Source: Vicingaceae bacterium (GTDB lineage: Bacteria > Bacteroidota > Bacteroidia > Flavobacteriales_E > Vicingaceae). Taken from it: 64,000 nt of DNA. The notes beneath the pieces are model-generated. The model was not told where the DNA came from, ran no database searches, and worked only from the letters and a program-made list of their open reading frames with translations. Both the position numbers and the translations under genes were made by a program. Location of the stretch: positions 1 through 64,000 of the forward strand of contig JAHYJH010000003.1 in the NCBI GenBank assembly GCA_019429185.1. The letters are read 5' to 3'. Shown here one piece after another: positions 12,229 to 16,997 of this stretch (position 1 is the stretch's first letter; every line of letters starts with the position of its first letter).

Positions 12229-13014
12229 ATGGAAAAGTTACGTTTGCTAAAAGATTATCTAATCTATTTTTTTAAATCTACCAACCAGCATGGAATTCAT
12301 TCTCCTTTTGTGTTTGAACTTTATAACAATATTATAAAAGACCAAACTTCATTTTATGCTTTTGCAGATATTGAATCCATCAGAGCAATGTTGTTGCTTA
12401 GCAAGCAAGAAATTGAGGTGAAAGATTTTGGTGCTGGTTCAAAATTAACAACATCCAACAAACGAAAAATTTCATCTATCGTTAAAAATGCAGCAAAATC
12501 ACCAAAATATGGTCAATTACTTTTTCGGTTGGTAAATCGTTTTAAACCTTCAACCGTATTAGAAATAGGAACTTCATTAGGAATCAGCACCATGTATTTG
12601 GCTGCTGCAAGTAAAAAAACAAGCGTCATAACCATTGAAGGTTGCCCAACTATCTCAAAAATTGCAGCCATCAATTTCAAAAAAATTGATTTTGAAAACA
12701 TAACGCTTCACAATGGTAGTTTTGATGAAATACTACCTAAAATTATTGCGAAAGAAAACGTGTTAGGTTTTGTTTTTTTTGATGGCAATCACACCAAAAA
12801 TGCTACACTTACCTATTTTAATTGGTGTTTAGAAAAAGCCAACGAACAAAGTGTTTTTGTTTTTGATGACATTTATTGGTCGGAAGAAATGAAATGTGCT
12901 TGGGAAGAAATTAAAAAACATCCAAAAGTAACCACCACCATTGATTTGTTTTTTTTAGGAATTGTATTCTTTAATCCAGAGTTAAGTAAGGAACATTTTG
13001 TGTTGCGATTTTAG
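12229..13014 (+). CDS. SAM-dependent O-methyltransferase-like protein
   Basis: VLEIGTSLGISTMYLAAASKKTSVITIEG motif I; FVFFDGNHTKNATLTYF. Confidence 0.85.
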   Translation: MEKLRLLKDYLIYFFKSTNQHGIHSPFVFELYNNIIKDQTSFYAFADIESIRAMLLLSKQEIEVKDFGAGSKLTTSNKRKISSIVKNAAKSPKYGQLLFRLVNRFKPSTVLEIGTSLGISTMYLAAASKKTSVITIEGCPTISKIAAINFKKIDFENITLHNGSFDEILPKIIAKENVLGFVFFDGNHTKNATLTYFNWCLEKANEQSVFVFDDIYWSEEMKCAWEEIKKHPKVTTTIDLFFLGIVFFNPELSKEHFVLRF

Positions 13015-13021
13015 AAACTAG
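13007..13021 (+). repeat. Junction direct repeat copy A: gattttagaaactag
   Basis: Identical 15-mer at 14622-14636; related sequence at 15439-15452. Confidence 0.9.
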
Positions 13022-13093
13022 TGTGATAATTCATTGTTGGTGCTACGCACCCAACGAAACCCTTGCTGTTATAGGACGTTTTTCTTCTGTCTA

Positions 13094-13879
13094 TCAGTTC
13101 GGGTTTATTTTTCTTAATAGTTTTCTTGAAAAGTCAGTTTCAGCGTCTAATGAAGCTATCATTTCTCCGCCCGCGTTTGAAAGTCTTGCCAAGTCTTGTT
13201 TGGGAATAGAACCTTGGTCTGAAAAAATTAACAAACTCTCAAAATCTGCTTTGCTATTATTCAATCTCTCTAATACAATTGTTGTCAAACGTGCTTTGTC
13301 TCTATTGGGAATTCCAAAAAGAAAAATGGGGGCATACTTACCTTCAATTCGATAATCAATAGGATAGTCTCTCGCATTATCCATTTCATCAAAGTAGTAG
13401 TCTTTTTTTACTTTTTCTTCTCCTACAACTTTGAATAATTGTTCTTGCAGGTCTTCATAAAAAGTTGATTCCGCTCTTGCTCTATTTAGAAAAGTAAGAT
13501 CATTGATTTTTGTCAATGCCTGTCCAAGTCTAAAAATATTAAATCCTAAATTTTCCACAGGTGTGTCTATGAAAAACTCTCCATTGTCTTCGTCAATAAA
13601 TGTTTCAGCTTTTATCTGGTCAAATATTTTACCCCTTGTTCCTTCTCTAAATTTATCAATGTCATTGTCATAACTTAAATGCATCATTGTATGACCCATA
13701 TCAGTTAATCTGATAATACCACCTGGCATTTCCTTAATGTAAATTTGATAAGGGTCTCCGTCAGCAAAGTAAAAAGGCGTTTCAATGAAAAGTAATTTTC
13801 CATTCTTCGGCTTTATATTTACTTCTGCACACATTAGTGAGCAAAGAGTCTCTTGTAGTTTATTTATATCAAGGTTCAT
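13094..13879 (-). CDS. DUF1828-type protein (probable DUF1828/DUF1829)
   Basis: TPFYFADGDPYQIYIKEMPGGIIRLTDMGHTMMHLSYD N-terminal block; ends one base into the upstream ORF. Confidence 0.7.
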   Translation of the reverse strand: MNLDINKLQETLCSLMCAEVNIKPKNGKLLFIETPFYFADGDPYQIYIKEMPGGIIRLTDMGHTMMHLSYDNDIDKFREGTRGKIFDQIKAETFIDEDNGEFFIDTPVENLGFNIFRLGQALTKINDLTFLNRARAESTFYEDLQEQLFKVVGEEKVKKDYYFDEMDNARDYPIDYRIEGKYAPIFLFGIPNRDKARLTTIVLERLNNSKADFESLLIFSDQGSIPKQDLARLSNAGGEMIASLDAETDFSRKLLRKINPN

Positions 13880-14376
13880 TATTCGAATAATTTAGTTTGA
13901 CTAGTATTGTCAGGCGTAGTGTTAATACCTGAAATTTTACAATCTGTCACTAGGCAATGTAAAGCTCCTTCAACAGTATTATATCTATCAGTTGCCATTG
14001 CAAATCCTTCAGCTTTTCTATTAGCCTTTATATACTTTTCCGTAGCCATATGAATGTGGCAAGTATAACCAAGTCTAACCTTTTCTAAATGGTTTGGATG
14101 GTCGTGATTTGGTCCGTTATATCTTTTTAGTGTTAGTGTTTCTCCATTAGGGGCGAGCCAACTTATCCCACAAGAAAAGTCGTCTTCCATACCGTCCCGA
14201 AGATTTTGTCGTTTGTATATCTCAAATTCGTGTCCTAAGTTGTCTAAAGCAACGGCTTTAAAATTAAATTGCTCATGACCTTCCTTATTTTTGCTTCTCG
14301 CTTGTGGATTTGTCAAGCGTTTAGGGCAGTTTAGAAAGTCTGCAATTTTGTCGTCTGTTAAACTCTCAAATGCCAT
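13879..14376 (-). CDS. hypothetical protein, translationally coupled partner of the DUF1828 gene (possibly DUF6978-like)
   Basis: ORF abuts/overlaps 13094-13879 by 1 nt on the same strand. Confidence 0.65.
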   Translation of the reverse strand: MAFESLTDDKIADFLNCPKRLTNPQARSKNKEGHEQFNFKAVALDNLGHEFEIYKRQNLRDGMEDDFSCGISWLAPNGETLTLKRYNGPNHDHPNHLEKVRLGYTCHIHMATEKYIKANRKAEGFAMATDRYNTVEGALHCLVTDCKISGINTTPDNTSQTKLFE

Positions 14377-14494
14377 TCTTTATTATTCAGTTTTTATATT
14401 TGCAATTTTACGAAAAATACTCTTATGTCGGTCATTTTGATTGGAAACTTTGTCTTTCTAAACTTACGCACACTTGTATATATGTCTGACAAAA

Positions 14495-14532
14495 TCATAC
14501 ATATACACCCAAATTTGGGTAGATATGTATGA
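14495..14532. promoter_or_regulatory. 38-bp near-perfect palindrome upstream of the DUF1828 operon, operator candidate
   Basis: tcatacatatacacccaaa/tttgggtagatatgtatga, 17 of 19 pairs. Confidence 0.6.
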
Positions 14533-14621
14533 AAACTATCATACTTTATTTTAGAACAAATGTGTTCATTTGTTTTGAAATACTCAGCATAATGTTGTGT
14601 TTTTTAACTGCCCTTCAAAAG

Positions 14622-14636
14622 GATTTTAGAAACTAG
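14622..14636 (+). repeat. Junction direct repeat copy B: gattttagaaactag
   Basis: Identical to 13007-13021. Confidence 0.9.
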
Positions 14637-14641
14637 GAGCA

Positions 14642-14989
14642 CTAATTACGTTTCTTTAATTTTTCGGGATACATTAGTACAGGAAAAAAGTCCGTTACAT
14701 AGATTTTTCTTATGGATTGATTTACGTAATAAATAATTTTTATTTCAAAATTTCTAGTTTCCTTGTGTAGTATAAACCTAAATTGTTGTGGATATTCTTT
14801 TAATACTGGTTCTAAGCTTCCTCTCTTTGGTATTGTTGAAAGACTTGCTACTAATGCCGTGATATTATCGTCTATTTCTGAGACTCTTTCTAAACTAAAA
14901 TTCTTAACTAAGTAAGCCAAAATCTCTTCCTGATACCTTTTTTCTGCTGGATAGGTTATTTCTATCTTGAAGCTTTGTTGTTCAACCAT
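14642..14989 (-). CDS. RelE/ParE-family toxin
   Basis: KIEITYPAEKRYQEEILAYLVKNF...IPKRGSLEP...FRFILHKETRNFEIKIIYYVNQSIRKIYVTDFFP; partner ORF overlaps upstream. Confidence 0.75.
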   Translation of the reverse strand: MVEQQSFKIEITYPAEKRYQEEILAYLVKNFSLERVSEIDDNITALVASLSTIPKRGSLEPVLKEYPQQFRFILHKETRNFEIKIIYYVNQSIRKIYVTDFFPVLMYPEKLKKRN

Positions 14990-15177
14990 TCTTTATTGTT
15001 CGCTTGAAATGTACTTAATGAAATTGTTTGTCCTTCTTCTATGGCTTTTATTGATTTTTCTGCTCGATATTGTAAGTGTGCTTGCTTCAATAAATTTTCA
15101 TATTGTTGCAATATTCCTTCTTCTTTTATCTGCATTAACTTTTCTATTAATCCTAGTTTTTTTGTTTCTATACTCAT
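14962..15177 (-). CDS. antitoxin-like small protein
   Basis: Upstream of and overlapping the RelE/ParE-like ORF by 28 nt; 71 aa, helical. Confidence 0.65.
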   Translation of the reverse strand: MSIETKKLGLIEKLMQIKEEGILQQYENLLKQAHLQYRAEKSIKAIEEGQTISLSTFQANNKEWLNNKASR

Positions 15178-15391
15178 CTTATTTGTGTTTAGGGTTACTA
15201 CAAATTTAACATTATTTTTTGTTTTTTATTATCAAAATTTGTGATTTCATGTTTAAAATATTTCTTTTAAAACGAATGATTTCCTAAAAACCTTTAATCC
15301 TTAGGCGGACAAACATAAGTTTTTGTAGTTAAAGTCCTTAGCCTCCTCAGATAGCTATCGATGCTCTTGCCTCACTTCAGGGCAGTAAAGA

Positions 15392-15445
15392 ATTGTATTC
15401 TTTAACCCCGATTTAACGAAAGAACACTTTGTGCTAAAGTTTTAA
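15392..15445 (+). pseudogene. Fossil 3' end of an O-methyltransferase gene (IVFFNPDLTKEHFVLKF*)
   Basis: Aligns without gaps to the last 18 codons of 12229-13014 (IVFFNPELSKEHFVLRF*), 41 of 54 nt identical. Confidence 0.85.
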
Positions 15446-16997
15446 AAACTAGGAGCACTTATTGTTCTAAACCTTCTTTTGGAAGCTGATTTTGAAAAAC
15501 CAAAACTTCCATCAAATACTACGGTATAAACCAACTCTTTGTTAAATAGTTCTCCCGGCTTTATTTCTATTGACCATGTTATTTCTCCTGCTTCATAATC
15601 AACTGTTCCGTTAGTTGTTTTATCTAACGTAACTTCTGCACTTTTCGATTGAGATATAGGAAATTGCTCCTTTAACTCAAATACAACAGGAAATGAATTG
15701 TTGTTTTTTAGTGTATATTCATAGGCATAAGTAACTTTTTTCTTTTTATTAAAACTAGTAGGTTCTTTCGCATATTTTTGGTCTGCAATTTCTTTTCGTT
15801 TCATAAAAATACTGTTATCCTTTCCCACTGGAAGGAGCAATGTGTCAGAAAATTCACTAAACTTAATAATCGTTTTTCCTATGTTGTTTTTGTTGTAAGT
15901 AATGTTTGCAACTCCATCCACAAAACCAAGCGTGTCCCAGTTTGTTATTTCTGAAACCAAATAAACTTCAGCATCTATACTTGGAAATCCATAAAAATAA
16001 TAGGTTGCTGGCAGTTTAACTGTCATTATTGGAAAAGAAAAAACAGTGCTGTTTGATTTTATTGAATATGTACCTTTTAGTGTTCTTAGTTTTAGGTATG
16101 AAGGAATTGATATTTCTTGATATTCAACACCTTCCAATTTAGAAATTACTTGCTGTTGTTGAGCTTGTTCTTGCACCAAATTAGTATTATTATTTTGGTT
16201 TGTATATTTAGATCGGCTTGTTAGTGTCCACGGTTCTTCAGGAACAGGGAGTGATGTTGGGTTATTCAATGGGAATGAAGAAGATAAATGAACAACTACC
16301 TTATCCCAATTTTCGCCAGTTTGACTCATAATTCGAGCAAGGTATTTCACTTGTATTTCTTTTTCGGAAGAGCTTTGAACATTTATTTCATAAAATGGAC
16401 TCCACCCTATTCCTCCAGTAATGTATTCAATTTCTAAATCAGAATTTAATGTTTTTTCAACAGAAACAAGCAGTTTTAAAATAGCTGCATTTTCGTTGTT
16501 TAGTTTTACTTCTTCCAATTGTTTTGCTTCTGCTATGGATGAGTCAACAAACCGAAGTTGCTTTTTTAACTCCATTATTTTTTTTGAATAAAAATCGAGC
16601 ATTTTCTCTAAATCTGCAACTTCATTCACAAAATTAGATTCATTGTATTTTACTTCTAACAATGCCAATTGGTTTAACAAGGCATTTCGCTCATCTTCTA
16701 ATTGATTAAATTCTTCTTTGGTGAGTTTTTTAATGAGGGACTTATTGAGAATAGTTACTTCCTTATTATTAAATTATTAATAGTAATGGTATTTAAAACC
16801 AATTTTGAAGAAATATTTTTCAATACAAGTTCTTGAATTCCTACAGTTAATCGTTGATTACTGGTTCTGGAAACCAATGCACCAGAATGATACACCGTAA
16901 TTTCTTGAACATTAGAAAGAATTTCAACTTCCTTTGCAAAAGAAAAATTAATAAACAGGTAGTATATAATTACGGAAACAACTAATTTTAATCTCAT
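15442..16997 (-). pseudogene. DUF4139/DUF4140 (mucoidy-inhibitor-like) protein interrupted by one frameshift near 16765
   Basis: ORFs 16755-16997 (signal peptide, VQEITVYHSGALVSRTSNQRL) and 15442-16680 (LEIEYITGGIGWSPFYEINV) are joined in another frame by NNKEVTILNKSLIKKLTKEEFNQLEDERNA with no stop. Confidence 0.75.

Follow-up and report, generated by a model that had tools for sequence, protein, structure and literature searches.

In the classical integron, a recombinase gene lies beside an attI site, the attC sites fold into hairpins with extrahelical bases, and arrays of unrelated genes carry GTTRRRY/RYYYAAC-type ends at which the start of a cassette is complementary to its end. Such start-end complementarity is a mark of integron gene cassettes. 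Integrons as such are already on record in Bacteroidota in the open-access literature, and a recent survey named Salinibacter ruber as the complete integron found in Bacteroidetes (PMC9024848). An additional domain of the integron integrase IntI has been claimed to be essential (PMC8138268).

The platforms described here in Bacteroidia share the placing of the recombinase gene beside attI, the types of cassette end, the start-end complementarity and the arrays of unrelated genes, and some of their attC sites fold well into hairpins. Their recombinase lacks the IntI additional domain (~42 residues) and bears an N-terminal extension of ~85 residues; its gene lies just upstream of attI, on the same strand. 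A strict definition of the integron requires that domain, and the platform is therefore described as one that works in the manner of integrons, without being a confirmed case. With XerA/XerC-type enzymes (NF040815, “site-specific tyrosine recombinase/integron integrase”), the platform recombinase has the core domains in common (PDB 4a8e, 5hxy), whereas an adjacent attI with cassettes, an IntI-like SPxD motif and a context other than dif-type housekeeping set it apart. Orphan cassettes, i.e., those of the locus under study and of contigs C60, C147 and C193 of the same genome, resemble CALINs or scattered cassettes in having no adjacent integrase, but they keep an attI-like site and, in several cases, traces of the recombinase 3′ end, and are therefore read as broken platforms.

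A probable decayed cassette in a Vicingaceae genome

The window, i.e., the whole stretch of 64,000 nt analyzed here from a Vicingaceae bacterium, contains an insert (13022-14621, the A-B interval) downstream of an intact methyltransferase gene, MT1 (12229..13014, plus strand; Pfam Methyltransf_24, 1.7e-14), which is 90% identical in amino acids to its counterpart on contig C235 of the sister species G001. With a probability of roughly 0.8, this insert is the decayed remainder of an integron-like platform of Bacteroidia: it comprises an attI-like site, one DUF6978-like/DUF1828 cassette and half an attC, and has lost the recombinase gene that normally lies upstream. The reading is supported by the layout of related loci, by the GTT as the exact point at which sequences change, by start-end complementarity, by cassette arrays and by the attC hairpins of compact sites. 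An intact platform consists of a XerA/IntI-like tyrosine recombinase gene and, within 53-145 bp downstream on the same strand, an attI site that in most cases contains an inverted repeat. Circular cassettes with one attC each would be inserted through recombination at a GTT in attI, so that each cassette starts with a GTTRNN.. stretch complementary to its own end. The cassette reaction would presumably be catalyzed by the XerA/IntI-like recombinase, the cassettes may move as folded single strands, and their expression probably depends on a promoter at attI. Several attI copies are preceded by a TATATTTG motif, which resembles Bacteroidetes promoters.

A search of the window genome with the insert returned a short recurring stretch at each end, namely a hairpin (H1) downstream and a palindrome (H2) upstream of the operon. 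The attI-like element that holds the palindrome lies at about 14474..14570 (minus strand; core 14495-14532) and has homologous copies on C60, C147 and C193 and in genomes G005, G027, G031, G001 and G003. The attC-like site (13028..13080, minus strand) keeps its R''/L'' half and is truncated in the loop, where it breaks off at ...CACCAACAATGAATT, with L'/R' missing. Between H2 and H1 lies the cassette body (13080..14470, minus strand), which is 88.9% identical at the nucleotide level to locus L112 of a Bacteroidales MAG (UBA7960) over exactly 14470-13080. The start of the cassette (14463..14476, minus strand) aligns with the GTT starts of other attI-like copies and is degenerate, reading CAAGTGTGCGTAAG where AAGTTGTGCG is expected; the L112 copy terminates in the complementary GCGCACAAC. 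Since the degenerate start (CAAGTGTGCG) does not match R'' at its own 3′ end, this copy, which itself has no start-end complementarity, can be no more than a decayed or hybrid cassette, and with an attC that stops in the loop it is probably dead as a cassette.

The cargo is an operon of two genes with overlapping start and stop codons. The DUF1828 protein, a defense candidate (13094..13879, minus strand; PF08861, 3.6e-24), matches the PADLOC model PDC-M24B (3e-17), a component of the candidate system PDC-M24, unlike its DUF6978-like partner of 165 aa (13879..14376, minus strand), which matched no PADLOC model and showed only a weak, below cut-off similarity to PF22398 (E 0.066). The pair is probably defense cargo, a candidate phage defense. 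DUF1828 relatives, 57-92% identical, are spread over several phyla (Bacteroidota, Chlorobiaceae, Ignavibacteria, Nitrospirae, a Balneolaceae MAG and Proteobacteria), mostly outside recognizable cassettes, and no obvious att sites were seen at most of them (L113-L123, L126-L130). Rfam gave no match at the insert. A phage origin of the insert was considered and rejected, as no match was found in the phage collection and the H1 core occurred in no viral contig.

Recombinases, attI sites and arrays in Bacteroidia

On contig C35 of the window genome, an intact tyrosine recombinase of 361 aa ends in the codons seen in the H2 copies and is followed by a like element and GTTGTGCC. Across the family, H2 copies end in ACACATATAAAYAAGTT or close variants, each followed by another cassette, and the copies on C147, on C193 and in relatives keep the last recombinase codons (about AAAGCCCTTTTGATGATTTGTAA) and end at GTT with a different cassette. 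From this resemblance, H2 looks like the attI of the platform; in intact platforms attI adjoins the recombinase gene and cassettes join at the GTT, whereas the window retains the attI-like site only. On C60, the H1 and H2 pair flanks a different gene, and the unit starts with GTTAGCAGC and ends with the complementary GCTGCTAAC; likewise, the unit on C163 starts with GTTATGCAC and ends with the complementary GTGCATAAC. No matching end was detectable for the first C35 cassette. The first unit past attI on C35 (L066/L219) is a long block of genes for DNA methyltransferases and restriction-like proteins, possibly a captured defense locus.

The same layout recurs beyond this genome. Most of the 33 recombinase loci examined show the recombinase, then roughly 50-145 bp, a GTT and a different cassette. 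At 20 loci with recombinases 35-62% identical to that of C35, the stop codon and the GTT that opens the cassette are 53-145 bp apart, and the spacer between them usually contains an inverted repeat. With GTT positions picked by eye, an 8-nt complement of the start of the first cassette was found downstream at the own locus in 12 of 20 cases vs. 18 of 376 cross-locus comparisons (Fisher 3e-10). When all GTTs were scanned, a 9-mer complement was present at 12 of 16 testable loci, and absent from the remaining 4, vs. 27 of 150 ordinary gene ends (p 6e-6). Of 13 loci in a second set, 8 had enough downstream sequence, and 4 of these 8 showed a complement; no attI was seen after the L227 recombinase of that set. 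Members of two different genera, G008 and G015 (L202, L203), share 1,714 identical bp over the recombinase and attI, ending exactly at the GTT; this identity could reflect recent transfer or misbinning, most of the genomes compared being probably MAGs. Gillisia mitskevichiae DSM 19839 carries a recombinase (L217:4368-5513, minus strand), attI and attC on contig C7, and also an array whose 7-8 sites measure 149 nt; the array includes a DUF6978-like/DUF1828 pair and has GTTRRRY/RYYYAAC ends, its intervals showing their own start-end complementarity of 7-10 nt in 6 of 7 cases, with the exception spanning a site missed by the pattern. In this species and in a Flavobacterium MAG, the DUF6978-like/DUF1828 pair starts with GTTGGGC and ends with GCCCAAC.

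The recombinase reaches 221 bits against NF040815 (cut-off 220) and 200 against the integron integrase model TIGR02249 (cut-off 265). Residues 179-243 of IntI4 (2a3v) align to ~22 residues of the C35 enzyme, and with ~22 residues against 64 the additional domain (~42 residues) is missing. The C-terminal SP motif of IntI (SPxD) is present, and the KDR-HxLRH spacing is 58 in all ~10 sequences with locatable motifs. The N-terminal region of ~85 residues is conserved (L066:5517-5770), has no Pfam match and lies outside both the XerA and the IntI alignments.

Scattered single cassettes are known for the classical integrase, and the architecture of the attC sites is classical; ordinary IntI might thus have scattered canonical cassettes into secondary, attG-like sites, with the XerA-like recombinases as bystanders. 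This explanation is improbable, since none of 50 genomes (the window genome and its relatives, 47 in all, and 3 reached via cassette loci) passed the IntI cut-off and, at the loci tested, the spacing between the recombinase 3′ end and attI is short and regular. For the platform reading, the balance tilts toward the broader view that Bacteroidia hold widespread functional integrons, with an integrase devoid of the additional domain that IntI is held to need for recombining folded attC sites, that shuttle defense and accessory genes between genera and phyla; because integron surveys identify integrases by that domain, these platforms would have been overlooked. Should XerA-like recombinases without the domain indeed run arrays across Bacteroidia, a large system of gene capture has gone unnoticed in a class of bacteria that is abundant. 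In that case the claimed necessity of the domain (PMC8138268) becomes open to direct test, and many unexplained “hypothetical” genes of Bacteroidota are of cassette origin.

Junction repeats and a second methyltransferase copy

Beyond the insert lies a DUF4140/DUF4139 gene (15442..16997, minus strand), convergent with MT1. It is split here into 412 and 80 aa by a frameshift or a sequencing error, its homologue in G001 being a single ORF of 515 aa. Copy A of the junction repeat (13007..13021, plus strand; 15 bp) coincides with the end of MT1 and is uninterrupted in G001 (C235), and copy B (14622..14647, plus strand) joins the MT1 end to sequence homologous with the 3′ end of DUF4139, in the same order as in G001 (C235). 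The 15-mer GATTTTAGAAACTAG is exact at 13007-13021 and 14622-14636. Copies B and C have AAACTAGGAGCACT in common and agree at 22 of 24 nt, a match that extends into the end of the DUF4139 gene (the 14622..14647 region vs. 15440-15463, 92%). All the repeats quoted in a sequence-only reading of this DNA sit where it had placed them, and its view of the A-B interval as a mobile unit with no resident integrase holds locally: the interval is a gene cassette absent from G001, in which the intact methyltransferase on C235 runs uninterrupted into GATTTTAGAAACTAGGAACCCTAATTGTTCTAA. Relative to that junction, the interval is an insertion with a 15-bp duplication; the fragment possibly entered through capture at a staggered break, or it may be what stayed behind when the other parts of a larger insertion were lost.

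The same reading had gone further, proposing the junction as a hotspot at which the DUF1828 operon and a toxin-antitoxin pair were inserted successively by site-specific attachment, each leaving a copy. In its favor, the 15-bp direct repeat flanks the A-B insert exactly and the G001 junction is uninterrupted, yet this scenario is even harder to sustain than scattering by IntI. Only two exact copies of the 15-mer exist in the 3.66-Mb genome, a third on C194 having one mismatch, so that the sequence is neither abundant by chance nor a recurrent insertion site. It is not the recombination site: cassettes join at the GTT in attI/attC, and the 15-mer is missing from the orphan attI-cassette loci on C60, C147 and C193. 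The methyltransferase remnant that copy C represents is also found in G001, with no toxin-antitoxin pair there. None of the relatives examined carries other cargo at the junction, which leaves the hotspot unsupported.

Copy C has an origin of its own. The 3′ end of MT1 is repeated over 63 nt (12959-13021 vs. 15390-15452, 79% identical), copy C falling within the repeat, and the differences are mostly synonymous or conservative (E/D, S/T, R/K), as a once-functional, divergent gene copy would be expected to show. In G001, DUF4139 lies on another contig, where its neighbor in tail-to-tail orientation is a methyltransferase copy that has decayed and carries an internal deletion (C256:480-780). From the C235 and C256 arrangements it follows that the lineage once had two methyltransferase copies. 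Copy C is the last piece of the second one, MT2 (15390..15452, plus strand), whose longer G001 remnant stands on the same side of DUF4139; MT2 decayed beside DUF4139 down to its final 63 nt, and no repeat marks the B-C interval as another insertion. The toxin-antitoxin pair and copy C have a history separate from that of the A-B insert. The ParE/RelE-like toxin candidate (14642..14989, minus strand) has scattered homologues in 22 of 395 genomes and no Pfam match, two homologues weakly matching ParE_toxin below cut-off (0.004 and 0.023); a small upstream ORF that overlaps it (14962..15177, minus strand) is the putative antitoxin. Locally, then, the picture is that of an ordinary decayed insertion together with a pseudogene remnant.

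In G002, G003 and G004, the methyltransferase gene and DUF4139 are not adjacent: ~37 kb separates them in G003 and in G004, and G002 has them on separate contigs. DUF4139, the VCBS-like gene and SecDF remain grouped in all three. Integration at the methyltransferase 3′ end through a 16-bp core (GAATTGTATTCTTTAA), in the manner of gene-end-restoring phages, was rejected as the main model because the G001 MT2 remnant beside DUF4139 is an internally deleted pseudogene. The G005 contig ends at the same methyltransferase position, possibly owing to a repeat-induced break. A short repeat (..TCTGAAGYGAGGCAAGAGC..CTAAGGACTT) is present in the window at 15311-15385 and on C147 (L064) after the cassette ORF, in both cases at the edge of an insert.

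Predicted hairpins at the cassette ends

The attC-like site of the window has the sequence TAACAGCAAGGGTTTCGTTGGGTGCGTAGCACCAACAATGAA in common with C60, C163, C219 and C221. The complete H1 copy of C163 folds as an attC hairpin of the same shape as the attC beside the intact recombinase of G048; these two compact sites have one hairpin shape with a two-base bulge (folding z -3.5 and -4.2, respectively). Among the longer attC candidates, one folds well (z -3.1) and two no better than shuffles (z -0.9 and -0.8). H1 was also considered as a repeat widespread in Bacteroidia and rejected as such, strong DNA matches being found only in the window genome and G005, while its hairpin architecture is also present in G048. 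On C163 (L060, 2171-3981), an IS91-type transposase gene overlaps a tyrosine recombinase gene beside the complete attC-like site, between cassette-like units.

A rolling-circle element of the IS91 kind (Y1/Y2), or a transposon of another type, might have moved the operon by one-ended transposition, with the shared hairpins as its ends. This idea draws on that transposase, on the hairpin nature of H1 and on the variable 3′ ends of the orphan inserts, but it is the least probable explanation of all. In G048, an intact platform of recombinase and attI has an H1-type hairpin after its first cassette; codons from the recombinase 3′ end are retained in attI-like copies; and start-end complementarity is not known as a feature of IS91. 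At most loci examined here, GTT-bounded cassettes occur without IS91. On C219 (L037:2501-2912), a group II intron (Rfam RF02001 and RF01998) lies near a cassette-like unit that ends in an attC-like site.
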